From Kordia aestuariivivens (GTDB lineage Bacteria; Bacteroidota; Bacteroidia; Flavobacteriales; Flavobacteriaceae): a DNA stretch of 64,000 nucleotides. Under the pieces are notes generated by a model. The model had not been told where the DNA came from, searched no databases, and saw only the letters and a program-made list of their open reading frames with translations. The position numbers and the translations under genes were made by a program. The DNA is taken from positions 248,001 through 312,000 of the forward strand of contig NZ_JACGWS010000001.1 of NCBI RefSeq assembly GCF_014397005.1, read 5' to 3'. Position 1 is the first letter of the stretch, and the number at the start of each line of letters is the position of its first letter. Positions 2,850 to 51,690 of the stretch are shown here, one piece after another.

Positions 2850-3707
2850 ATGAAAAACAACTATTTACAAACGGTCATTTTATTCGTTTTTATGCTTGTA
2901 AATGCTTTTCTCAACGCACAAGATTTTCAAGGTGTTGCAACCTATAAAACAAGTCGTAAAATGGACATTAAAATTGATAGCATGGCGCAAAGTCAAGGAA
3001 TTAATGAAGACATGCAAAAAAAGCTAAATGCAATGTTGCAAAAGCAATTTCAAAAAGAATACAAACTTACATTCAATGCTTCAGAATCTATTTATAAACA
3101 AGAAGGGAAATTGGCGGCGCCAGCACCTGGAAATGACGGAATGATGATTATGGTAATGGGCGATAGTGAATCGAAAGCGTTATACAAAAACACCAAGGAA
3201 AAGCGCTATGCGAACAAAGAAGATATCATGGGAAAGGTATTTTTAATTCAAGATTCTTTAGAGAAGAAAGATTGGAAACTAGAAAGCGAAACAAAATTTA
3301 TTGGGCAATACACATGTTACAAGGCAACGCGTACGACGGAAATTGAAAGAATGACATCAACTTCTATCAATGATACTGTTGATGACGAACCAAAAAGAAC
3401 CAAAGAGACCATTACCATTACAGCCTGGTATACACTTGACATTCCAGTGAATACAGGTCCAGGAATGTATTGGGGATTGCCAGGATTGATACTGGAAGTA
3501 AACGATGGAACAGAAACAATTGTTTGCAGTAAAATTGTATTAAACCCGAAAGATAAAATCACGATCAAAGAACCAACAAAAGGTAAAAAAGTGAATCAGG
3601 CTGCGTTTGAAAAAATCATGGAGAAAAAGTCAAAAGAAATGATGGAACGTTACCGTGGCAATCGCAGAGATGGTGAAGATGGTATGAGAATTGAAATTAG
3701 AGGATAA
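2850..3707 (+). CDS. GLPGLI family protein
   Basis: 285-residue secreted protein with a signal peptide ending near the AQ at 23-24. The family-defining motif GLPGLI is present inside GPGMYWGLPGLILEVNDG at about residues 207-223, preceded by the typical AWYTLDIPV. The family is restricted to Bacteroidota and its function is unknown; members are commonly found next to TonB-receptor-like proteins, as here. It is first in a run of four genes ending with a TonB-receptor-like protein. A second paralogue lies at 5038-5925. The role is presumably envelope-associated, but nothing in the sequence shows a catalytic centre. Confidence 0.88.
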   Translation: MKNNYLQTVILFVFMLVNAFLNAQDFQGVATYKTSRKMDIKIDSMAQSQGINEDMQKKLNAMLQKQFQKEYKLTFNASESIYKQEGKLAAPAPGNDGMMIMVMGDSESKALYKNTKEKRYANKEDIMGKVFLIQDSLEKKDWKLESETKFIGQYTCYKATRTTEIERMTSTSINDTVDDEPKRTKETITITAWYTLDIPVNTGPGMYWGLPGLILEVNDGTETIVCSKIVLNPKDKITIKEPTKGKKVNQAAFEKIMEKKSKEMMERYRGNRRDGEDGMRIEIRG

Positions 3708-9324: not shown

Positions 9325-9598
9325 GATATATAATCTTTAAAAATGCCTACTCTATAAAAGGATTTTCGGCTTCGTCCTGTGTTTAACTAATTTGATATTT
9401 CAAAATTCATCATTATGAGTAAGAAAAAATAGACTGTAAGTACTGTAAATACGCTTCCGTAGATTCCCGTGATTTGTGGTGGTTTATACGCGGTTATCGG
9501 TTTGTAAGTTAAATAGGAGCAGTTTTTTGATTAGTTTTATATCAGATTAAAAAAAGAAAAGCCTGCCAATTATTAATAATCACATAAACTATTCACCA

Positions 9599-17633: not shown

Positions 17634-17709
17634 AATAAATCTTTCTTTAAAAAATTATATTAATATGGAAAAACTAAAAGTGATTGCTTAGTCGGCTAAA
17701 GAAGTAGAA

Positions 17710-17832
17710 ATTACTGCTTTAGCATTTTTTGTTATCCTGAATTTATTTCAGGATCTAGTCTATAAATCATAAACTAGGTACTGAAACAAGTTCAGCACAA
17801 GAGGTTGCAATCAGTTCAAATTTTTCCTCAAA
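17710..17832 (-). promoter_or_regulatory. SAM-II riboswitch candidate controlling metK
   Basis: On the minus strand P1 is GAGG (17829-17826) with CCTC (17804-17801), enclosing AATTTGAACTGATTGCAA. After an insert comes AATGCTAAAGCAG (~17727-17713). The conserved SAM-II features TTGCAA directly before the 3' P1 strand and GCTAAA further on are both present. The ~69-base insert (17731-17799) is a dispersed palindromic repeat sitting in the loop between them. Immediately after, GCTAAAG can pair with CTTTAGC (~17697-17703) as a competing hairpin, a plausible expression switch. SAM-II is known from proteobacteria and Bacteroidota upstream of methionine genes. Confidence 0.7.
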
Positions 17833-17840
17833 ATCAGGTG

Positions 17841-17869: not shown

Positions 17870-17937
17870 ACAACAAAAAAATATAAATTTAGATTTCACT
17901 TAAAAACTGTTAAAAACACTTTTTTTTGAAAAAATAT

Positions 17938-17969
17938 TTGGATATTAAAAAATAATGACTTTACCTTTG
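17938..17969 (+). promoter_or_regulatory. Promoter of the metY-metX-thrA leader
   Basis: TTG at 17938-17940 and TACCTTTG at 17962-17969, spacer 21. TACCTTTG fits the Bacteroidota -7 consensus TAnnTTTG exactly. Transcription would start near 17975, about 14 bases before the first leader ORF. The promoter is divergent from that of metK. Confidence 0.7.
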
Positions 17970-17988
17970 TAGCAAACAAAGACGAAAA

Positions 17989-18066
17989 ATGCAAAATAAA
18001 GTTTCAAATACAATGTGTTGTATGATGTGTAGCAGAAATGCCGCGGAGGACACCATTGTACGATAA
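17989..18066 (+). CDS. Leader peptide 1, Met/Cys-rich (attenuator)
   Basis: 25-codon ORF starting with ATG 17989, with the run MCCMMC at codons 9-14, so six successive codons demand Met- or Cys-tRNA. Right after the run, GCGGAGG (18043-18049) is complementary, with one G-U pair, to CCTCTGC (18097-18103), the 5' arm of the following terminator. This is the layout of a ribosome-mediated transcription attenuator: stalling on the Met/Cys codons would leave GCGGAGG free to block the terminator; smooth translation to the stop at 18066 would let it form. The downstream genes make homocysteine and methionine precursors. Not an encoded functional protein in my view. Confidence 0.8.
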   Translation: MQNKVSNTMCCMMCSRNAAEDTIVR

Positions 18067-18093
18067 CTTTAAAAAAGCATCCATCAATAATAT

Positions 18094-18122
18094 AAGCCTC
18101 TGCAAACGCAGAGGCTTTTTTC
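18094..18122 (+). terminator. Attenuator terminator 1
   Basis: Stem AAGCCTCTGC (18094-18103) and GCAGAGGCTT (18108-18117), loop AAAC, followed by a T-run. It lies 27 bases after the stop of leader peptide 1 and about 400 bases before metY, so it would end transcription prematurely. Confidence 0.9.
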
Positions 18123-18159
18123 ATGATTATATTTTAAGTTAATTTTTTTTCAAAAACCA

Positions 18160-18291
18160 ATGATGACAATTTTTCAACTAGCAGAATTTACAATTACAAG
18201 CACAGCAATGATGTGTTGTTGTATGATGGTTATGTGCATGGTATGCTGTAACCAACTCCGCTATTATCGAAAAGTTCCTGATAAGCTCTAA
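18160..18291 (+). CDS. Leader peptide 2, Met/Cys-rich (second attenuator in tandem)
   Basis: 43-codon ORF from ATG 18160 (a second ATG follows at 18163) with the run MMCCCMMVMCMVCC at codons 17-30: twelve of fourteen codons are Met or Cys. It is followed 19 bases later by another strong terminator. Within the ORF after the run, CGAAAAGTTCC (~18268-18278) could pair at 8 of 11 positions with the terminator 5' arm, a weaker antiterminator than in leader 1. No separate promoter is visible between leader 1 and leader 2, so both probably act in series on one transcript. The hydrophobic run could also be read as a membrane segment, but position and terminator argue for a leader. Confidence 0.78.
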   Translation: MMTIFQLAEFTITSTAMMCCCMMVMCMVCCNQLRYYRKVPDKL

Positions 18292-18310
18292 CAAGTTTAT
18301 CGCATCTATA

Positions 18311-18354
18311 AAAAAGGTCCTTTTGGTAATATACTTCCAAAAGGACTTTTTTTT
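18311..18354 (+). terminator. Attenuator terminator 2
   Basis: GTCCTTTTGG (18317-18326) pairs with CCAAAAGGAC (18337-18346), extended by AAAAAG with the T-tract, and is followed by eight T. It lies between leader 2 and metY. Confidence 0.9.
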
Positions 18355-18400
18355 GGTTAAAATTCAAACACGCTAAGTGTCACATCGAGCACAGTTGAGA

Positions 18401-18517
18401 TGCATTAGAAAAACAAACAAACACACAAATACACAGAAAAACAAAGAACAAAAAAACAAACGAACAAACAGAAAAACGAATAAACGAACAAATACACACA
18501 TACAAAAACAAGAAAAC
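18401..18517 (+). other. U-poor, A/C-rich untranslated leader of metY
   Basis: About 115 bases made almost only of A, C and G in irregular units such as AAACAAACGAAC and AAATACACAC, nearly without T. It lies after the second terminator and before ATG 18518. An mRNA of this kind should be unstructured. Related tracts precede metZ (23300-23480) and metH (36150-36207). A 1-base-accurate repeat unit is not kept, so it looks like decayed simple repeat. A GAGC.CAGT.GAGA palindrome (18383-18400) lies just before it. Confidence 0.55.
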
Positions 18518-19813
18518 ATGAGCACACAAAAATTCGCAACAAAAGCATTACATTCAGGACACGACACTACAAAAAATGGAGGAACACGAGCCGTTCCAAT
18601 TTACCAGTCAACAGCGTATGTATTCAACAATTCGGATCATGCATCTAACTTATTCGCGTTAGCAGAACCTGGAAACATTTACACCAGAATAAACAATCCA
18701 ACGAATGATATTCTCGAACAACGATTAGCCGCTTTAGAAGGTGGAATTGCAGCAGTAGTGACAGCTTCAGGAACGGCGGCGATTGCCACAACATTACTCA
18801 CATTACTCAGAGCAGGCGATCACATTGTAGCTTCCAACAGTTTATATGGCGGAACCTATAATCTACTCAATGTGACGCTTCCGCGATTGGGAATTACGAC
18901 AACTTTTGTAGATCCAGATGATGAAAACAGTTTCAGCGACGCAGTTCAAGAAAATACAAGAGCTGTTTTCATTGAATCTTTAGGGAATCCGAAACTAGAT
19001 GTTTTAGACCTTGAGAAAATTTCGGCGCAAGCCAAAGCAAACAAAATTCCTTTAATCGTCGACAATACGATTGCCACTCCATACTTACTGAATCCTATCA
19101 AATACGGCGCAAACATTGTCATTCACTCACTTACCAAATACATCAACGGAAACGGAACTGCCTTAGGTGGTGCCATTATTGACGCAGGAACCTTTGATTG
19201 GACGAACGGAAAATTCCCAGAATTCACAGAACCTTCTGCGGGTTATCACGGTTTAGTATACAGCGAAGCACTAAAAGAAGCGGCATTTATCGCGAAAGTT
19301 CGTATTGAAGGATTGCGAGATTTTGGTTCAGCATTAAGTCCATTCAACGCGTTTCAAATTATACAAGGATTGGAAACCTTACCAATTCGCATCAAGCAGC
19401 ACAGTCAAAACGCACTCGAATTGGCAACCTGGTTGCAAACGCAAGAAGCCGTTGCTTGGGTAAACTATCCAGGGTTGGAAACGAGCAACTATCTGGCTTT
19501 AGCCAAAAAATACTTGCCAGAAGGACAAAGCGGAATTGTAACGTTTGGAATCAAAGCAGGATTTGAAGCAGCAAAACGCATTGCAGACGAAACACAAGTG
19601 TTCTCGCTCTTAGCAAATATTGGCGATACAAAATCACTCATCATTCATCCAGCAAGTACCACACACCAACAATTAAACACGGAACAACAAGCTTCTACTG
19701 GTGTGACACAAGATTTAATTCGTTTATCGGTTGGTTTGGAAGATGTAGAAGATTTGAAAGCAGATTTACAAACTGTATTCGAAAAGATAACCGCAGGAAT
19801 TCCAGCATCCTAA
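18518..19813 (+). CDS. metY: O-acetylhomoserine aminocarboxypropyltransferase / sulfhydrylase
   Basis: PLP enzyme that makes homocysteine from O-acetylhomoserine and sulfide. Start set at ATG 18518: the upstream in-frame extension runs through the A/C-rich leader and encodes only a Lys/Thr/Asn repeat. 431 residues, normal for the family. Features: TKALHSGHD at the start, YTRINNPTNDILEQRLAALEGG (split here as the substrate/PLP loop YTRINNPTND), the phosphate-binding ASGTAAI, and the PLP-Lys motif HSLTKYINGNG. It is first gene of metY-metX-thrA, 10 bp before metX, under the tandem leader attenuators. Confidence 0.93.
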   Translation: MSTQKFATKALHSGHDTTKNGGTRAVPIYQSTAYVFNNSDHASNLFALAEPGNIYTRINNPTNDILEQRLAALEGGIAAVVTASGTAAIATTLLTLLRAGDHIVASNSLYGGTYNLLNVTLPRLGITTTFVDPDDENSFSDAVQENTRAVFIESLGNPKLDVLDLEKISAQAKANKIPLIVDNTIATPYLLNPIKYGANIVIHSLTKYINGNGTALGGAIIDAGTFDWTNGKFPEFTEPSAGYHGLVYSEALKEAAFIAKVRIEGLRDFGSALSPFNAFQIIQGLETLPIRIKQHSQNALELATWLQTQEAVAWVNYPGLETSNYLALAKKYLPEGQSGIVTFGIKAGFEAAKRIADETQVFSLLANIGDTKSLIIHPASTTHQQLNTEQQASTGVTQDLIRLSVGLEDVEDLKADLQTVFEKITAGIPAS

Positions 19814-19823
19814 ACCATATATT

Positions 19824-20813
19824 TTGAGAGAGAAAATAGCACATATATCTATTACCGATTTTTTCACAGAAAGTGGCGCGTATTATCCGAACCTAAAGTT
19901 GAGTTATCAGCTTGCGGGTTCGGATAACGCAGATGCGCCGATTGTGTTGGTCAATCATGCTTTAACGGGGAACTCCGAAGTCACAGGCGAAAATGGTTGG
20001 TGGAAATCACTCATTGGCGATGGAAAATGTATTGATACAAATCATTTTAAAGTTTTAAGTTTTGACATTCCAGGCAATGGTTTTTTGCGCGAAGCAGCAC
20101 TCATCAAACAGTATAAAGATTTTGTTGCGAGAGATATTGCGAAGATTTTTATCAGAGGATTGGAACATTTAAAAATCAATACATTATTTGCGGCTATTGG
20201 CGGATCGTTAGGCGGTGGAATTGTTTGGGAAATGGCGGTTTTAGAACCAAATTTGATTCAAAATTTAATCCCGATTGCTTCCGATTGGAAATCGACCGAT
20301 TGGTTGATTGCGAATTGCTTCTTGCAAGAACGCATTCTAGAAAATTCGAGCAATCCGATTGAAGATGCACGCATTCATGCCATGTTGTGTTACCGAACGC
20401 CATTTTCACTCAAAGTAAAATTTCAGCGGACGCTACATAAAGAAAAAAATATTTTTAATACGGAAAGTTGGTTGCTCCATCACGGAGAAAAATTACAACA
20501 GCGTTTTCAATTATCCGCATACAAACTGATGAATCAACTCTTAAAAACAATTGACATTACCAGAGGTCGCGAATCGTTGGAAAAAGTTGCAGCGCCGATT
20601 GCGGGAAACATTCACATTATTAGTATTAATAGTGACATCTTTTTTTCGCCTGACGAAGATATAGAAACCTACAGAAGACTCAAGCGCGTGAAGGCAAATG
20701 TGTATCATGATGAAATACAATCCATTCATGGGCACGACGCTTTTTTAATGGAATACAGACAATTAAGTCATTTGCTCAGAAACATATTTCAAGTACAAAA
20801 ATCATCAATTTGA
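19824..20813 (+). CDS. metX: Homoserine O-acetyltransferase (alpha/beta hydrolase fold)
   Basis: Acyl transfer from acetyl-CoA to homoserine, supplying the MetY substrate. 329 residues, alpha/beta hydrolase fold with nucleophile Ser128 in GGSLGGG, the oxyanion-type NHALTGN (44-50), the catalytic Asp in SDIFFSPDED (~283) and His in IHGHDAFL. The start is TTG 19824; there is no earlier ATG and the next internal ATG would remove the core. It is slightly shorter than typical MetX (~350-380). Position between metY and the aspartate kinase/homoserine dehydrogenase supports the call. Confidence 0.88.
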   Translation: MREKIAHISITDFFTESGAYYPNLKLSYQLAGSDNADAPIVLVNHALTGNSEVTGENGWWKSLIGDGKCIDTNHFKVLSFDIPGNGFLREAALIKQYKDFVARDIAKIFIRGLEHLKINTLFAAIGGSLGGGIVWEMAVLEPNLIQNLIPIASDWKSTDWLIANCFLQERILENSSNPIEDARIHAMLCYRTPFSLKVKFQRTLHKEKNIFNTESWLLHHGEKLQQRFQLSAYKLMNQLLKTIDITRGRESLEKVAAPIAGNIHIISINSDIFFSPDEDIETYRRLKRVKANVYHDEIQSIHGHDAFLMEYRQLSHLLRNIFQVQKSSI

Positions 20814-20830: not shown

Positions 20831-23233
20831 ATGAAGATATTGAAATTTGGTGGAAAATCACTTGCGAACGGAAAAGGAATTAAAACGGCAATTCAGATTA
20901 TAAAAGATAAAGCGCAGCAGGAAGGAAATATTGCAGTTGTACTATCGGCGCGCGGAAATGCTACGGATGAATTGTTGGAAATGCTGGAAAAAGCTGCTCG
21001 CAAAGAAACGTACCATGAACAATTGACGGCGTTTAAAGCATATCAAAGTCAAACAGATAGATCGCTCGATTTTTCGGAAGAGTTTACAACCTTGGAAAAT
21101 CTATTTCAAGGAGTTTCTTTATTGGGCGATTATTCTGAAAAAATAAAAGATCAAGTTGCATCGCAAGGCGAAATTATCTCAGCGAAATTGGTCACTAATT
21201 TATTAAAGAAAGAAGGTGTAAATGCACATTATACAGATACCCGAAAGCTGATAAAAACGGATGATGTTTTCGGAAATGCGAGACCTTTGGATGTAATTTC
21301 GAGAAGAAATGTGATCAATCATTTTAAATCGTACAACGGAACAACGGTTAATATTGTGACAGGTTTTATAGGATCGAATCAAAACAATGAAACGACAACA
21401 TTGGGGAGAAACGGAAGTAATTATACAGCAGCTTTGTTAGCGAATTTTTTAGATGCTGAAGAATTACAAAATTATACACATGTCGATGGAATTTTCACCG
21501 CAAATCCTGATTTAGTGGCTGACGCCAGAAAAATTGCTGAATTATCTTTTAATGAAGCAAATGAATTGGCAACGTTTGGCGCGCACATTTTACATGCAAA
21601 AACGATTGTTCCGTTGATTGAAAAAAACATTCCATTGCGAATTTTGAATACGTTCAATAGTTCCGATAATGGAACGGTGATTACGCAAAAAACAAACACA
21701 AAAGGCATCAAATCGATTTCGGTATTAGACACTGTTGCGTTGATCAATTTAGAAGGTAGAGGTTTGCTCGGTAGAGTTGGTGTGGATGCACGAATTTTTA
21801 GAACCTTAGGCGAAAATGAGATCAATGTGAGTATTATTTCGCAAGGTTCATCGGAACGTGGTATTGGTTTGGTAATTGATGCAGACAAAGCTTCCAAAGC
21901 TATTGTTAGTTTAGAAAAAGAGTTTGAAAATGATTTCTATACAAAAGATGTCAATAAAATATCAGTTATAGATGATGTTGCTGTCATTTCGATTGTTGGT
22001 CAAGATTTGAGCGAATTTCACAAGCCGTATAACGCATTGATAAAGAATCAAATTGTTCCGATTTTGTTTAATAATACGGTTTCAGGTAAAAACGTGAGTT
22101 TGGTCGTGAAGAAGTCACAATTACACAAAGCTATCAACGTGATTCACGGCCAAATCTTCGGAATTTCTAAAAAAATAAACATTGCTGTTTTTGGAAAAGG
22201 ATTGGTCGGTGGCACATTGCTCGATCAAATTGTACACAGTAAAACAGCTATTTTAGATAAAAATAACATCAAGCTAAATGTATTCGCTATTGCAGATTCA
22301 CAACATGTGTATTTAGACAAAAACGGCATTGCAGACGATTGGAAATTTGAATTTCAACAACAAAAAACGGCATATACATTACAACAAATTATAGATTACG
22401 CGAAAGCGCACCATTTAGAAAACCTCATTGCGGTTGACACAACGGCGAGTAAAGATTTTATTCATGATTATATAAGTTTAGTTAAAAATGGCTTTGATTT
22501 GGTTTCGGCAAATAAAATTGCAAATACAGTTGAATATTCGTTCTATCAAGAATTGAGAACGCAGCTTCAAAAGTATCAAAAAAATTATTTGTACGAAACC
22601 AATGTTGGGGCTGGATTGCCATTGATAGACACGATTAAATTATTGCATAAATCGGGTGAAAAAATTAAAAAAATTCGCGGTGTATTTTCGGGTTCATTAA
22701 GTTATCTGTTTAATACGTATTCAGTGGAAGATATTCCGTTTAGTATGGTATTGAAACAAGCCGAAGAAAAAGGGTTTACCGAACCGGATGCACGTGAAGA
22801 TTTATCGGGAAATGATGTGGCTCGAAAGTTATTAATTCTTGCCAGAGAATTGGACTTAAAACATGAATTATCAGACATCACGATTCAAAATTTATTACCA
22901 GCACATTTACAAGCAATCAATCTGCAACTATTCAAAAAAAGTATCACAGATTTAGATCAAACATATACACTCATCAAAGCAAATCAAAAGGAACATCATG
23001 TATTACGGTATGTTGGCGATTTATCTACAGAAACAGGAATTTTGGAAGTAAAGTTAATTTCTGTGCCGAGCAATAGTGCCTTGGGACAAATAAAAGGCTC
23101 GGATTCTATTTTCGAGATTTACACAGAAGCGTACGCAGCACAACCATTAGTCATTCAAGGTGCCGGAGCTGGCGCGGCGGTTACGGCAAGAGGTGTTTTT
23201 GGAGATATATTACGTTTAACGGAGAAATTGTAG
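20831..23233 (+). CDS. thrA: Bifunctional aspartate kinase / homoserine dehydrogenase I
   Basis: 800 residues, close to the ~820 of E. coli ThrA. N-terminal aspartokinase (1-~275) begins KFGGKSLANG; a central regulatory ACT region (~300-440) contains GRGLLGRVGVDARIF and SQGSSERGIG; C-terminal homoserine dehydrogenase (~447-800) has the NAD(P) loop FGKGLVGGTLLDQI and the substrate loop TNVGAGLPLIDTIK. It supplies homoserine to metX and, elsewhere, to threonine. Being in the metY-metX operon suggests this copy serves methionine. Its stop codon lies inside a small hairpin (GTAGACT/AGTCTAC, 23230-23255). Confidence 0.95.
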   Translation: MKILKFGGKSLANGKGIKTAIQIIKDKAQQEGNIAVVLSARGNATDELLEMLEKAARKETYHEQLTAFKAYQSQTDRSLDFSEEFTTLENLFQGVSLLGDYSEKIKDQVASQGEIISAKLVTNLLKKEGVNAHYTDTRKLIKTDDVFGNARPLDVISRRNVINHFKSYNGTTVNIVTGFIGSNQNNETTTLGRNGSNYTAALLANFLDAEELQNYTHVDGIFTANPDLVADARKIAELSFNEANELATFGAHILHAKTIVPLIEKNIPLRILNTFNSSDNGTVITQKTNTKGIKSISVLDTVALINLEGRGLLGRVGVDARIFRTLGENEINVSIISQGSSERGIGLVIDADKASKAIVSLEKEFENDFYTKDVNKISVIDDVAVISIVGQDLSEFHKPYNALIKNQIVPILFNNTVSGKNVSLVVKKSQLHKAINVIHGQIFGISKKINIAVFGKGLVGGTLLDQIVHSKTAILDKNNIKLNVFAIADSQHVYLDKNGIADDWKFEFQQQKTAYTLQQIIDYAKAHHLENLIAVDTTASKDFIHDYISLVKNGFDLVSANKIANTVEYSFYQELRTQLQKYQKNYLYETNVGAGLPLIDTIKLLHKSGEKIKKIRGVFSGSLSYLFNTYSVEDIPFSMVLKQAEEKGFTEPDAREDLSGNDVARKLLILARELDLKHELSDITIQNLLPAHLQAINLQLFKKSITDLDQTYTLIKANQKEHHVLRYVGDLSTETGILEVKLISVPSNSALGQIKGSDSIFEIYTEAYAAQPLVIQGAGAGAAVTARGVFGDILRLTEKL

Positions 23234-35694: not shown

Positions 35695-35795
35695 CAAGCG
35701 AAAACGTTATCGTATAAAAATCACTAAAAAATATTTGCATCTTCCTTTTGGAAGCCGTTAATTTGTGTAAATAAATAGTTCATATACATACTGTC

Positions 35796-35894
35796 GTTAT
35801 CAAGAAAGGCCGAGGGATTAGACCCGTTGAAGCCTTAGCAACCCTTTACACATAAAGAAGGTGCTACATTCTACTGCGCAAGCGGATAGATAAC
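35796..35894 (+). promoter_or_regulatory. SAM-I riboswitch (S-box) upstream of metH
   Basis: P1 is formed by GTTATC (35796-35801) and GATAAC (35889-35894). Between them are the S-box landmarks CAAGAAAGG..GAGGGA, GACCCGTTGAAGCC, TTAGCAACCC, AAGGTGCTACATTC and the final GATA. These match the SAM-I aptamer in order and spacing. A short hairpin ending in six T (~35900-35930) may be the expression platform, but its stem is weak. It controls the two-part methionine synthase downstream. Confidence 0.93.
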
Positions 35895-35944
35895 AAAAGA
35901 GAAATTCACTTCATTTCCTCACACTTTTTTGATACAACTTATAA

Positions 35945-36207: not shown

Positions 36208-37209
36208 ATGAAAAACATCTGGAACGAAATAGAAAAACGAATCCTTGTCCTCGATGGCGCTATGGGAACCATGTTGCAAGCCTACAAATTTGTGGAAGCT
36301 GATTTCCGTGGCGAACGCTTCAAGGATTACCCAACACCATTGCAAGGAAACAATGACTTGCTATCCATCACACAACCACACGCCATCAAAGAAGTACATG
36401 CAAAATACTTTGCAGCGGGTGCAGACATTGTAGAAACCAATACATTCTCCGGAACTACCATCGCGATGGCTGATTATCAAATGGAAGACTTGGTATACGA
36501 ACTCAACTTCGAATCGGCAAAAATTGCCAAAGAAGTGGCTGACGAATTCACAGCCAAAGAACCGCACAAACCACGTTTTGTAGCAGGTTCCATTGGTCCA
36601 ACAAACCGAACAGCAAGCATGTCACCCGACGTAAATGATCCAGGTTATCGCGCCGTAACATTTGACGAATTGCGTATAGCGTACAAACAACAAGTAGAAG
36701 CTTTACTAGATGGTGGCGTTGATGTATTATTAGTCGAAACAGTATTTGACACGCTCAATGCAAAAGCGGCACTATTTGCCATCGAAGAAGTAAAAACAGA
36801 ACGCGATATTACAATTCCAATCATGTTGAGCGGAACCATTACTGATGCAAGCGGACGTACACTATCTGGGCAAACCGCAGAAGCATTTCTAATCTCCGTA
36901 TCACACATTCCGTTACTATCCGTCGGATTTAACTGTGCGTTAGGCGCAAACCTATTACAACCACATTTAGAAGCCATTGCGAACAAAACGGACTTTGCAA
37001 TCTCAGCGCATCCAAACGCAGGATTGCCAAACGCTTTTGGGGAATACGAAGAATCACCAGAAGAAATGGCTGCTCAAATAGAAGAATACCTCAAAAAAAA
37101 TCTAATAAATATTATCGGTGGATGTTGCGGAACAACGCCCGATCATATCACCGCAATCGCTGAGGTAGCTGCGAAATACAAACCACGTCAGGTAGTTGTT
37201 AGTTGTTAG
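36208..37209 (+). CDS. Methionine synthase, homocysteine-binding module (split MetH part 1)
   Basis: 333 residues equal to the N-terminal homocysteine S-methyltransferase domain of MetH. Begins with [10 protein letters not shown] (~12-21); zinc-binding Cys in SVGFNCALG (~244) and the pair in [10 protein letters not shown] (~310). Alone it binds and activates homocysteine; the folate, cobalamin and reactivation modules are in the next gene. It is the first gene of metH1-metH2-metF behind a SAM-I riboswitch. The split is usual in Bacteroidota. The ATG is preceded by a GAAAGAAC-repeat, U-poor tract. Confidence 0.94.
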
Positions 37210-37368: not shown

Positions 37369-40068
37369 ATGAAAATAAAGCAAACTAAATATATGCGACT
37401 TTCAGGTTTAGAACCACTAGTTCTAAACGAAAATAGCAACTTTATAAATGTAGGAGAACGAACCAATGTAGCAGGCTCGCGTAAATTCTTGCGACTCATC
37501 AAAGACGAAAAATTTGATGAAGCGTTGGCAATTGCCAGACATCAAGTAGATGGTGGCGCGCAAATCATCGATATCAACATGGACGATGGTTTAATTGACG
37601 GAAAAGAAGCCATGGTAAAGTTTCTAAACCTCATTGCTGCCGAACCAGATATCTGTCGCGTGCCCATCATGATTGACAGCTCCAAGTGGGAAATCATAGA
37701 AGCCGGATTGCAAGTGGTACAAGGGAAGTCGGTGGTAAACTCTATCTCACTAAAAGAAGGTGAAGAAAAATTTATCTGGGAAGCAACACAAATCAAACGG
37801 TACGGAGCGGCAGTCATTGTCATGGCTTTCGATGAAGTTGGACAAGCAGACAACTACGAAAGACGTTTAGAAATTGTGGCGCGTTCGTACGATGTATTAG
37901 TCAACAAAGTAGGGTTTCCTGAAGAAGATATCATCTTTGATTTAAACATATTTCCCGTAGCAACCGGAATGGACGAACACCGCAAAAATGCTATTGATTT
38001 CATTGAAGCAACACGTTGGACGCGTCAAACCTATCCGAATGTAAGTGTCAGTGGCGGTGTGAGTAATGTATCGTTTTCGTTTAGAGGAAACAATGTTGTG
38101 CGTGAAGCGATGCACTCAGTATTCTTATATCATGCCATTCAAGCTGGAATGAACATGGGAATCGTAAACCCTGCAATGTTAGAAATATATGATGACATTC
38201 CAAAAGACTTGTTAGAACATGTAGAAGATGTAATGTTTGATAGGAGAGAAGATGCAACGGAACGTTTATTGGATCTGGCGGAAGCTTTCAAAGGAACAAA
38301 AAAAGCAAGTGCAGAAACCATTCAAGAATGGCGCGGTTTCGAATTGCAAGAACGTATCACACATTCACTCGTAAAAGGAATTGATAAATATATTTTAGAG
38401 GACATAGAAGAAGCACGCCAAAAAGCAGAAAAACCGTTAGAAGTCATCGAAGGAAACCTCATGATTGGTATGAATGTCGTGGGCGATTTATTCGGTTCAG
38501 GAAAAATGTTCTTACCGCAAGTGGTAAAATCGGCACGTGTAATGAAAAAAGCGGTTGCTTATCTAAACCCTTATATTGAAGAAGAAAAAAAGAAAAATGC
38601 TACCAAATCATCGAAAGATGAAAGCGGGGCAGTAGGAAAAATATTAATGGCAACCGTAAAAGGTGATGTGCACGATATTGGAAAAAACATTGTAAGTGTC
38701 GTACTCGGTTGTAACAATTACGAAATTGTAGATTTGGGTGTGATGGTTGCACCCGAAAAAATCATTGCAGCAGCCAAAGCGGAAAATGTAGATGTCATAG
38801 GATTATCTGGTTTAATTACGCCTTCGCTAGACGAAATGGTGTATTTAGCCAAAGAAATGGAACGTCAAAACTTTAGCATTCCTTTATTGATTGGTGGCGC
38901 AACGACTTCCAAAGCACATACAGCTGTAAAAATTGATCCAGAATACAAAAATGCGGTCGTACATGTCAATGATGCATCAAGAGCAGTGACGGTTGTGGGT
39001 GATTTGTTAAATAAGAAAAAATCAAAAATCTATCGCAAAAAGCTAAAGGAAGACTATGATATATTCCGCGAAAAGTTCTTAAAACGTAGAAAAACAAAAA
39101 AATACATTCCATTATCAGCAGCGCGACGAAAAAAATATAAAATCGATTGGGAAACGAGCAACATCGTAAAACCAAATGAACTCGGAATCCAGAAACTTAC
39201 ACAATTAAGTTTGAAAGAATTAGTTCCGTTTATCGATTGGAGTCCATTCTTTAGATCGTGGGATTTACACGGACATTATCCAGCGATTTTAACGGATAAC
39301 GTGGTTGGTGAACAAGCAACACAATTATTTGCGGATGCACAAGAAATGATCAAAGAAATCATTGCGAATCAATCGCTAAAAGCAAAAGGAATTTTTGGAT
39401 TGTTTGAAGCAAACACAATTAATCATGATGATATTTCCATTCAGAAAAACGGAAAAGAAGTTGCTGTTTTTAGAACACTGCGTCAACAATTGGAAAAACG
39501 TGCCGAAGTTCCAAACATTGCTTTGTCAGACTTTATAGCACCAAAAGAAACAGGCAAGCAAGATTATATGGGAACATTTTGTGTAGCGATATTTGGTGTG
39601 CAAGAATTGGCAGATAGTTACAAAGAAAAGCAAGACGATTACAACGCAATTATGGCGCAAGCCATTGCAGATAGATTTGCAGAAGCATTTGCTGAATACT
39701 TACACAAACAAGTCCGAACCAAACATTGGGGCTACGATGTGAGTGAAAATTTAACCAATGAAGATTTAATTAAGGAAAGTTACAAAGGAATTCGTCCAGC
39801 GCCAGGATATCCGGCATGCCCCGATCATTTGGAAAAAGAAACCATCTGGGAATTGCTTGGCGTTGAAGAAGTCATAGGTGTTACACTTACGGAAAGTTTA
39901 GCCATGTGGCCAGCTGCAGCCGTTTCTGGATATTATTTCGGAAACCAAGAAGCAAAGTATTTTGGGTTGGGGAAAATTACAAACGATCAGGTTGAAGATT
40001 TTGCGAATAGAAAAGGAATTAGCATAGAAAAAGCACAAAAATGGTTGCACCCAAACTTGGCGGATTAA
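37369..40068 (+). CDS. metH: Methionine synthase, folate, cobalamin and activation modules (split MetH part 2)
   Basis: 899 residues. Pterin-binding domain (~20-300, starting [13 protein letters not shown]), cap and B12-binding domain with the cobalt-ligating DVHDIGKN motif (His435) followed by [12 protein letters not shown], and a C-terminal SAM-binding activation domain (~590-899, with [14 protein letters not shown]). It transfers the methyl group from methyltetrahydrofolate to cobalamin and on to homocysteine held by the preceding protein. A weaker alternative start is the ATG at 37393. It ends four bases before a reverse copy of the GGGCGTT element. Confidence 0.97.
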
Positions 40069-40071
40069 CCC

Positions 40072-40196
40072 GCGTTAGTGATAGGAGCGGCATCCTCCCG
40101 ATTTTCTCGGGAGATACAGCGGATAGCACGACCATAAAAGGTTTTTGAACATTGAGCGGAGCGGAAATGAGAAATAAGCTTTTGTGGGAACGCCCA
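40072..40196 (-). repeat. GGGCGTT...TAACGC dispersed element, copy 2 (reverse)
   Basis: Minus strand: GGGCGTTCCCAC ... GTGCTATCCGCTGTATCTCC, stem CTCCCGA/TCGGGAG, GATGCCGCTCCTATCAC, ending TAACGC. It lies between metH and metF, presumably transcribed in antisense orientation within the operon. The inner block GCTATCCGCTGTATCTCC is identical to copy 3. Confidence 0.8.
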
Positions 40197-40258: not shown

Positions 40259-41215
40259 ATGAAAGTAACAGAACATATCACAAATGCCGAGGGAAAAACA
40301 TTGTTTACCTTTGAAATATTACCGCCATTAAAGGGACAAGATATTAAATCGATATTCGATAATATTGATCCGTTAATGGAATACAAACCACCATTTATTG
40401 ACGTAACGTATCACAGAGAAGAGTATACGTTTAAAGAATTGGGGAATGGATTGTTGAAAAAACAAGTGGTAAAAAAACGTCCAGGAACGGTTGGAATTTG
40501 TGCCGCGATTCAGAATAAATATCAAGTAGATGCTATTCCGCATATTTTATGTGGTGGATTTACGAAGGAAGACACAGAAAACTTCTTGATCGATTTAGAT
40601 TTCTTAGGAATTGACAATGTGGTTGCCTTACGTGGTGATGCGGTGAAAAGTGAAACCTATTTTAAACCTGAAAGTGACGGACATACATACGCTTCCGAAT
40701 TGGTAAGTCAGATACAAGACTTAAACAACGGAAAATATTTAGATGAAGAATTGCAAAACTCTTCCAAAACTGATTTTTGTGTGGGTGTTGCGGGGTACCC
40801 TGAAAAACACATGGAAGCGCCAAGTTTGGATTCGGATATTCATTTTTTAAAGAAAAAGATAAAAGCGGGCGCGGAATACATTGTAACGCAGATGTTTTTT
40901 GATAATCAAAAATTCTTCGAGTTTGAAAAAAAGTGTCGCAAAGAAGGCATTACGGTTCCTATCATTCCGGGATTGAAACCGATTGCAACACGAAAGCAGT
41001 TGAACTTAATTCCGCATCGTTTCAATGTAGATTTACCGGATGATCTCATTATGGCAATTGTTCGTTGTAAAGATAACAAAGCCGTTCGGCAAGTAGGAGT
41101 TGAATGGTGTACGCAACAAAGTAAAGAACTTATTGAAGCAGGTGTGCCGATTTTGCATTACTACTCTATGGGAAGATCGAGCAATATTGAAGCCATTGCA
41201 AAAAAGATATTTTAA
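40259..41215 (+). CDS. metF: Methylenetetrahydrofolate reductase
   Basis: 318 residues, TIM-barrel FAD enzyme that reduces 5,10-methylene-THF to the 5-methyl-THF used by methionine synthase. Recognisable: FTFEILPPLKGQ at the start (family FExxPP), NVVALRGDA (~116-124) and a C-terminal ending in the expected GVEWCTQQSKEL. It is the last gene of the metH1-metH2-metF unit and is closed by the bidirectional terminator at 41220-41262. Confidence 0.96.
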   Translation: MKVTEHITNAEGKTLFTFEILPPLKGQDIKSIFDNIDPLMEYKPPFIDVTYHREEYTFKELGNGLLKKQVVKKRPGTVGICAAIQNKYQVDAIPHILCGGFTKEDTENFLIDLDFLGIDNVVALRGDAVKSETYFKPESDGHTYASELVSQIQDLNNGKYLDEELQNSSKTDFCVGVAGYPEKHMEAPSLDSDIHFLKKKIKAGAEYIVTQMFFDNQKFFEFEKKCRKEGITVPIIPGLKPIATRKQLNLIPHRFNVDLPDDLIMAIVRCKDNKAVRQVGVEWCTQQSKELIEAGVPILHYYSMGRSSNIEAIAKKIF

Positions 41216-51470: not shown

Positions 51471-51582
51471 TTAGGGCGTTTCCAAGAAGCACACTTCGAG
51501 AAAACCTCAGTGTGCCTCTTGGTCGGGCTATCCGCTGTATCTCCCGAGAAAATCGGGAGGATGCCGCTGCTATCCCTAACGC
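51471..51582 (+). repeat. GGGCGTT...TAACGC dispersed element, copy 3
   Basis: Begins TTAGGGCGTT, has a long stem CCAAGAAGCACACT/AGTGTGCCTCTTGG, continues GTCGGGCTATCCGCTGTATC, stem CTCCCGA/TCGGGAG, and ends GCTATCCCTAACGC. It sits in the transcribed spacer between tyrA and the next operon gene. Confidence 0.85.
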
Positions 51583-51690
51583 GGAAGTTCCCACGAAAGT
51601 GGAAATCCCAAAGAACCAATATAATAATGAATAATATGCGTGTCTTGAGCTGATCGAAGGATAACGCAAAAAGTAAAAAAAAGAAAAACC

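Follow-up and report, generated by a model that had tools for sequence, protein, structure and literature searches.

The trp, his, leu, thr and phe operons of enteric bacteria are controlled by ribosome-mediated leader-peptide attenuators. Here we analyze a region that resembles these devices in a 64,000-nucleotide (nt) stretch of the Kordia aestuariivivens genome (genome G000, contig C1:248001-312000; hereafter the window), namely the leader region at window positions 17962-18354, upstream of a metY-metX-thrA gene array. Like the enteric attenuators, this region combines open reading frames (ORFs) containing codons for the product amino acids, competing antiterminator and terminator pairings, and intrinsic terminators that precede the operon; it differs in that methionine (Met) and cysteine (Cys) codons are used together and that two units are arranged in series. 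A further difference is that the messenger RNAs (mRNAs) of the phylum that includes Kordia, the Bacteroidetes, lack Shine-Dalgarno sequences (PMC6847099). An Rfam family, Phe_leader (RF01859), exists for the enteric type; no Rfam family matches the leader region of the window at the gathering score. Based on sequence comparison, we estimate a probability of about 0.9 that metY-metX-thrA is controlled by two ribosome-mediated transcription attenuators in series.

Several described leaders share some of these features. The polycysteine leaderless ORFs of mycobacteria respond to the Cys supply and act on downstream translation (Canestrari et al. 2020, as presented in PMC9031893). They resemble the Kordia leaders in being short Cys-codon ORFs responsive to Cys, a response that is only predicted in Kordia, and differ in being leaderless and having contiguous Cys codons, whereas the Kordia leaders are Met-led, mixed in Met and Cys, tandem, and followed by intrinsic terminators. 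In Streptomyces lividans, the peptide proposed for the metL leader upstream of metNIQ ends in ARCMCRRMCAF (PMC8079986) and thus mixes Met and Cys as in Kordia; in contrast, the authors stress Met and threonine (Thr) and report a leaderless start and the lack of a typical Rho-independent terminator, and this leader is single and linked to a transporter operon. For Flavobacterium psychrophilum, a member of the same family as Kordia, "strong clues" for leader-peptide attenuation upstream of amino-acid operons have been reported, with conserved 5' elements named for pheA, hisG and alaS (PMC9723704); "methionine" and "metY" are absent from the main text of that article, the supplement of which may list the present leader. 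The S-adenosylmethionine (SAM) riboswitch SAM-I (RF00162) occupies the same position in the same pathway in other Flavobacteriaceae, with the difference that its aptamer senses SAM; none of the 39 leader loci described below carries it immediately before metY. A partial literature search found no description of a Met/Cys attenuator upstream of flavobacterial metY. The device class is classical; what appears new within this coverage is the mixing of Met and Cys codons, the arrangement in tandem, the exchange with SAM-I and the recoding.

Leader units and their competing RNA pairings

An earlier sequence-only reading of the window had pointed to two short ORFs rich in Met and Cys, each followed within 30 bases by a terminator, and to a pairing of GCGGAGG with CCTCTGC in the first unit. 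Both ORFs can be read directly from the sequence (Table 1), the GC stems start 27 nt (leader 1) and 24 nt (leader 2) past the stop codons, and the pairing is present with one G-U pair. Among 2018 short ORFs (6-80 amino acids, both strands) of the window, only these two contain at least 6 Met or Cys in 8 residues. For each of the segments that include the terminators (17976-18124 and 18210-18357), the folding z-score is -4.9 and none of 200 shuffles folds as well; the front part of leader 2 (18125-18270), which lacks the terminator, folds at chance (z +0.86, 155/200 shuffles at least as good). The terminator scanner finds terminator 1 and misses terminator 2, the 10-base loop of which exceeds the scanner limit of 8. 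No match to the leader DNA was found in a plasmid collection.

The promoter assignment relies on the Bacteroidetes promoter consensus. Its downstream element, TACCTTTG, ends 20 nt before the ATG of leader 1, so that a leaderless start appears unlikely. A consensus scan detects TAnnTTTG in the 70 nt that precede leader 1 for 35 of 50 aligned sequences; in the 9 Kordia rows it lies at -26 or -27, one of these lacking the upstream TTTG. A sigma-70 promoter scan, which does not cover Bacteroidetes promoters, remained at chance (7 found, 8.0 expected). A Flavobacterium -7 promoter element is mentioned in PMC6847099.

Lack of conservation in related genomes would have refuted the sequence-only reading; instead, the short ORFs, their Met/Cys runs and the pairing were all found to be conserved, and 50 leader-1 and 41 leader-2 sequences were aligned. 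In leader 1, coordinated changes (AGAGG/CCTCT, AGCG/CGCT, AAGGG/CCCTT) affect the antiterminator strand (hereafter the box) and both arms of the terminator. At one column pair between box and 5' arm there are 32 AU, 10 CG, 4 GU, 3 GC and 1 other combination, and the same 5' arm base faces the 3' arm as 35 UA, 10 GC, 3 CG and 2 UG; the covariation scores of both helices are matched by 0 of 500 shuffles. For leader 2, we identified in all 41 sequences an antiterminator pairing that the sequence-only reading lacked. This helix of 14 possible pairs is formed in 82.5% of the alignment cells (9 to 13 pairs per row) and includes 6 pairs with double changes; none of 500 shuffles reaches its score, and slid pairings score at most 0.082 against 0.193 for the true one. 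The partner of the strand is the terminator 5' arm in Flavobacterium and the arm plus loop in the others, with variants such as GCTATTGCCA with TGGTAATAGC, GGTATTACC with GGTAATACC and CGTATTACC with GGTAATACG. The covariation thus indicates that mutually exclusive terminator and antiterminator pairing has been retained in both leaders. From the start codon of leader 1 through its run (columns 5-47), all 86 gap runs have a length of 3 or 6, and the gaps in the spacer have many lengths; this frame-keeping indicates that the leader-1 ORF is under coding selection.

The spacing between codons and box also fits ribosome control. We assumed that a ribosome covers the RNA up to 12 nt beyond the first base of its A-site codon, the value from E. 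coli toeprinting. Measured from the first base of the last Met/Cys codon, the leader-1 box starts at 15 nt in 36 of 50 sequences (among them the window, where this is the last Cys codon of the run), at 14 nt in 6 and at 12 nt in 5; thus, in 42 of 50 it would lie just past the expected front edge of a stalled ribosome. In the window, the terminator arms pair upstream for every Met/Cys stall tested (6/6 codons in leader 1; 8 of the 13 in leader 2). When the ribosome is placed on the final Met/Cys codon, 49/50 leader-1 and 31/41 leader-2 sequences are predicted to pair 5 or more arm bases upstream; with the ribosome at the leader end, the arm is mostly free (at most 2 bases paired upstream) in 49/50 and 26/41, respectively. 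The mean nascent folding energy for the stalled ribosome versus the ribosome at the stop codon is -14.4 versus -0.3 kcal/mol in leader 1 and -15.1 versus -1.9 in leader 2, shuffled spacers averaging -6.3 and -7.9. Spacing and predicted folding agree in that a stalled ribosome would leave the antiterminator strand free.

These observations are consistent with the following model. A single transcript that starts just after 17969 would pass through both leaders. When the Met/Cys run is translated fast, the ribosome would cover the antiterminator strand and the terminator hairpin would form; when it stalls on a Met or Cys codon, the strand would remain exposed because it begins just beyond the expected front edge, and could capture the terminator 5' arm (in leader 2, together with the loop) before the 3' arm is made, so that RNA polymerase would read on. 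Scarcity of charged Met-tRNA, or of Cys-tRNA where Cys codons exist, should open both gates, and two gates in series should provide a low leak and a steep response. That the leaders are translated, that ribosomes stall on them, that polymerase then reads through and that two stages are of benefit is inferred from this architecture. The device is real and conserved, and it very likely works as had been proposed, with Met as the core signal. A Met attenuator is conceptually awkward because Met is needed for initiation, and a working example would therefore be informative.

Several results weigh against this model or complicate it. The leader-1 spacing has outliers (17 nt in L044, 18 in L043, 5 in L103), and L043, from F. 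psychrophilum, has only three Met/Cys codons and no stop codon before the terminator in leader 1; for this leader and for leader 2 of L085, 18 of 60 shuffled spacers fold at least as well. The predicted switch is not sharp in the window, where leader 1 keeps 3 of 10 arm bases paired two codons past the run (0 at three) and again 3 of 10 at the stop codon, and leader 2 keeps 9 of 11 one codon past the run, 5 of 11 at four and 0 at six. In the leader-2 set, at least 3 arm bases stay paired upstream in 15/41 sequences when the ribosome is at the stop codon; in the stalled state, fewer than 5 arm bases pair upstream in 10/41, and several of these use the terminator loop for pairing. Folding of the full-length RNA favors the terminator at every ribosome position, so that antitermination would have to be kinetic, as in classical attenuators. 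Two of five measures of the leader-1 antiterminator lie within the shuffles (double-change pairs, 135/500; further pair types, 271/500), one slid pairing scores 0.148 against 0.213 for the true one, the sixth box pair is broken in 19 of 47 sequences, L141, L143 and L145 make only 4 of 6 box pairs, and the double changes stem from few clades. Gaps of 4 past column 47 imply that the box changes reading frame; the spacing places it in two different frames, being divisible by three in 42/50 rows and not in the other 8. Finally, 16 of the 39 leader loci have a single unit, and two metY loci (in G014 and G030) match neither a leader nor SAM-I.

Distribution among relatives and exchange with SAM riboswitches

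Both leaders are located upstream of metY in all 11 Kordia genomes (L081-L091). The metY of the window is 93-95% identical to that of four Kordia records, in line with the genus assignment. For comparison, we used the best 80 of 561 metY relatives, a set skewed toward close relatives and Flavobacterium. These comprise 39 loci with Met/Cys leaders (38 detected by script plus L078, a divergent pair with both terminators), 40 with SAM-I and one with SAM-II; leaders and a SAM riboswitch never occur together directly upstream of metY (0/80). The SAM-I loci were identified by an S-box pattern within 400 nt of metY (30 loci) and by Rfam models (9 more); the remaining one, L026, carries SAM-I about 1.4 kb upstream, before the preceding metB-like gene. 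In L061 (3373-3432), from an uncultured Bacteroidetes genome, SAM-II stands in place of SAM-I. Both units are present in 22 of the leader loci, leader 1 only in 9 and leader 2 only in 7, and L059 is cut by the contig end. Among the 30 loci L081-L110, a leader was scored in 15 and SAM-I without a leader in 11, leaving 4 that showed neither; of the last, G020 has SAM-I by Rfam, G017 is contig-cut, and G014 and G030 are the two mentioned above. One of the 15 leader calls, a short ORF in L092 (MFTHPKPGLCCAVMCK), was judged to be a chance match, with a SAM-I core located between it and metY.

On the metY tree of the 80 loci, the leader state requires at least 2 changes, the leader groups being Kordia on the one hand and Flavobacterium, Christiangramia and Salegentibacter on the other; either gain or loss of the leaders may fit the tree. 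Models of leader 1 (R1) and leader 2 (R2), trained on sequences that included these four genera, yield strong matches (E<=1.2e-8) in 33 and 23, respectively, of 397 genomes drawn evenly from the family, with metY lying behind the match at 27 of 30 strong R1 loci and 21 of 23 strong R2 loci examined. The leaders are present at 39 of the 80 metY loci closest to Kordia; with a strong R1 match in 33 of 397 genomes, they are carried by a sizeable minority of the family. Among 246 genomes drawn from the order, strong R1 matches (E<=4e-9) are found in 22, of which 21 belong to the same family, many to one genus; the only strong match outside the family is in G059. In two other genomes outside the family (G592 and G612, E about 2e-6), inspection revealed no Met/Cys leader. 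Most R1 and R2 matches nearer E 1e-4 are due to chance, as are most of those in the higher counts at E<=0.001. We inspected 18 weak sites (E 1.6e-6 to about 1e-3, genomes other than G026): four are clear leaders, namely L305 (before a MetY-like ORF), L307 (two ORFs, metX), L308 and L321 (both discussed below); a fifth, L316, is a relative poor in Met and Cys that precedes metX, and the other 13 were rejected because they resemble ends of ordinary genes.

The two types of control are also combined in other arrangements. In several leader genomes (e.g., G031 and G035), SAM-I is located behind metY and before metX, and in G176 (L208, about 2885-3240, reverse complement) a Met leader 1 with terminator and a SAM-I riboswitch follow each other in series before metX. 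If the attenuator reading is correct, the metY operons of close relatives carry a SAM riboswitch versus a sensor of charged tRNA at the same place and are directly comparable, a comparison that pits sensing of a product of methionine against sensing of a protein building block. In L199 (G349:C1, 1257-4533), a gene for a 948-amino-acid TonB-dependent receptor lies between leaders 1 and 2; it is perhaps a Met/Cys-controlled importer, and the element more generally predicts sulphur-controlled genes, this receptor among them. Leader-like pairs that are poor in Met and Cys and possess terminators were observed before a small ORF and SAM-I-metX in L200 (3990-4310) and L199 (7880-8020).

Amino acid sensed, recoded relatives and alternative explanations

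The sequence-only reading had proposed that the operon senses both Met and Cys. Met codons are present upstream of the antiterminator strand in 91/91 leaders, in line with this claim; Cys codons occur there in 43/50 leader-1 and 39/41 leader-2 sequences, and their lack in 7 and 2 leaders, respectively, indicates that Met serves as the main signal, to which Cys is often added. Together, Met and Cys account for 284/768 residues upstream of the strand in leader 1 and for 399/1023 in leader 2.

Related leaders with other codon runs are found before other genes. G026 encodes two leader pairs, one Met-rich before metY and one with tandem Cys runs before a serine O-acetyltransferase-family gene (under the cut-offs) and cysM (over the cut-off); the terminators of the latter (L302; G026:C192 42725-43049) resemble those of the metY pair. 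In Kordia, a nitrite/sulfite-reductase-family gene located beside cysD- and cysN-like genes is present in 6 of 11 genomes (not in G000, although the metY leaders are in all 11) and is preceded by a Met/Cys short ORF in 6/6 carriers, with a terminator detected by script in 4; at 17 of 18 loci of this gene outside Kordia, no Met/Cys leader was found. A script survey of Cys genes in 60 relatives, in which a hit had to combine a leader with a subsequent terminator inside 450 nt, scored 5/24 nitrite/sulfite-reductase-family loci (4 Kordia and G050), 0/29 cysH loci (L257 of 30 excluded; the G059 leaders lie too far upstream) and 1/22 cysE loci (the 22 strongest of 30); leaders of Cys genes are therefore patchy. 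Tandem leaders precede cysH-type genes in G448 (taken as Flavobacterium; followed by cysD and cysN) and in G059 (another family; followed by cysN), and in G581 (taken as Flavobacterium) leader 1 precedes a serine acetyltransferase-family gene and cysK. Finally, two of the weak R1 sites are an isoleucine (Ile)-run leader before ilvB (L308, G404) and a GTG-started asparagine (Asn)-run leader before asnA (L321, G424).

In a duplex test, 5 of 8 duplexes in recoded relatives surpass every one of 200 shuffles, and the same holds for the two G026 metY leaders; leader 2 of the G026 cysE pair fails (73/200 shuffles as low), the ilvB duplex is weak (8/200) and the Kordia cysI duplex is matched by 3/200. 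The relatives appear to be recoded, with Cys runs before cysE, Ile before ilvB and Asn before asnA, following the respective pathways. We are inclined to view these leaders as a modular attenuator scaffold of Flavobacteriia that is often inherited in tandem, in which the sensing run is recoded (as in the natural codon swap between the two G026 pairs and, in weaker relatives, before ilvB in G404 and asnA in G424) and the RNA switch is kept, with Met or Met/Cys forms replacing SAM-I at metY and G176 representing a two-signal gate. The recoded relatives are ready material for a code-swap experiment.

The universal presence of Met and the leaders devoid of Cys would also fit attenuators that sense Met only, the Cys codons carrying no signal and being retained for RNA sequence or decoding speed; indeed, some Cys codons of Flavobacterium leader 2 fall inside the conserved TGCTATTGCC RNA strand. 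Against this possibility, Cys is the second most common residue upstream of the strand (100/768 in leader 1, 141/1023 in leader 2), and Cys-rich leaders precede the G026 serine acetyltransferase gene and the nitrite/sulfite-reductase-family gene of all Kordia carriers, which makes sensing of Met only rather unlikely. It is conceivable, if not the option we prefer, that leaders 1 and 2 differ in their jobs, as a coarse and a fine sensor or each serving its own gene, the tandem order being partly historical. The receptor gene between the leaders of G349, the 16 single-unit loci and the larger number of Met/Cys codons upstream of the strand in leader 2 of the window (13 vs 6 in leader 1) point in this direction, whereas the presence of both leaders before metY throughout Kordia and the lack of TAnnTTTG between the leaders in two Kordia spacers inspected argue against it.

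Explanations that dispense with attenuation fare worse. Runs such as MMCCCMMVMCMVCC look like metal-binding sequences, and the C-terminus YYRKVPDK of Kordia leader 2 is conserved, so the ORFs might encode functional Met/Cys-rich microproteins, with the terminators merely setting a basal level. However, the residues outside the runs differ from one genus to another, two reading frames are used for the box, the conserved C-terminus overlaps a paired RNA strand, and related leaders before ilvB and asnA carry Ile and Asn runs, all of which renders microproteins very improbable. We give even less credence to a riboswitch (SAM, T-box or other) with incidental ORFs: SAM-I does hold this position in half of the closest loci (40/80), but no Rfam family, including SAM-I and SAM-II, reaches the gathering score on either strand of 17900-18520, T-box is absent among the 27 Rfam matches at E<=10 in the leader region, the gaps keep the frame through the run, and the conserved parts are the terminator, the antiterminator strand and the codon run. 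Control by tandem attenuators thus remains the reading that we favor.

Operon genes and other elements of the window

The metK, metY and thrA genes of the window surpass the curated NCBIfam cut-offs. MetY is assigned to the O-acetylhomoserine/O-acetylserine sulfhydrylase subfamily; its product could feed both Met and Cys supply, matching the codons of the leaders.

Table 1. Coordinates of leader elements, operon genes and SAM riboswitches in the window
Feature	Position	Strand	Details
Bacteroidetes-type promoter	17937..17969	+	TTTG 17937-17940, TACCTTTG 17962-17969; consensus match
Leader-1 ORF	17989..18066	+	25 amino acids, product MQNKVSNTMCCMMCSRNAAEDTIVR; run MCCMMC, codons 18013-18030
Leader-1 antiterminator 5' strand	18043..18049	+	GCGGAGG, pairs with CCTCTGC 18097-18103
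Terminator 1	18094..18121	+	stem 18094-18117, T tract to 18121; scanner, folding, covariation
Leader-2 ORF	18160..18291	+	43 amino acids, product MMTIFQLAEFTITSTAMMCCCMMVMCMVCCNQLRYYRKVPDKL; run MMCCCMMVMCMVCC, codons 18208-18249
Leader-2 antiterminator 5' strand	18262..18274	+	TATTATCGAAAAG, pairs with CTTTTGGTAATA 18320-18331 (terminator arm and loop)
Terminator 2	18316..18354	+	arms 18316-18326 and 18337-18347, T tract 18347-18354; folding
metY, O-acetylhomoserine sulfhydrylase	18518..19813	+	TIGR01326, 632.4 bits, cut-off 495.1
metX-like homoserine O-acetyltransferase	19824..20813	+	best match TIGR01392, 176.7 bits, under the 500-bit equivalog cut-off
thrA, bifunctional aspartate kinase/homoserine dehydrogenase	20831..23233	+	NF006959, 771.1 bits, cut-off 726
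SAM-II candidate before metK	17709-17835	-	40.9 bits, gathering score 44; long inserted loop
SAM-I riboswitch	35794-35896	+	Rfam; precedes split metH (36208-37209, 37369-40068) and metF (40259-41215) domain genes

The proposal that starvation is sensed instead of SAM would hold for the metY-metX-thrA operon only, as SAM-I is kept before metH-metF in the same region and a SAM-II candidate below the threshold lies before metK. At the position before metK, SAM-II is over the threshold in several relatives. The window also contains Rfam matches to DUF805b and Flavo-1 RNAs at 9344-9379 (-), 40063-40137 (+) and 51517-51585 (-).
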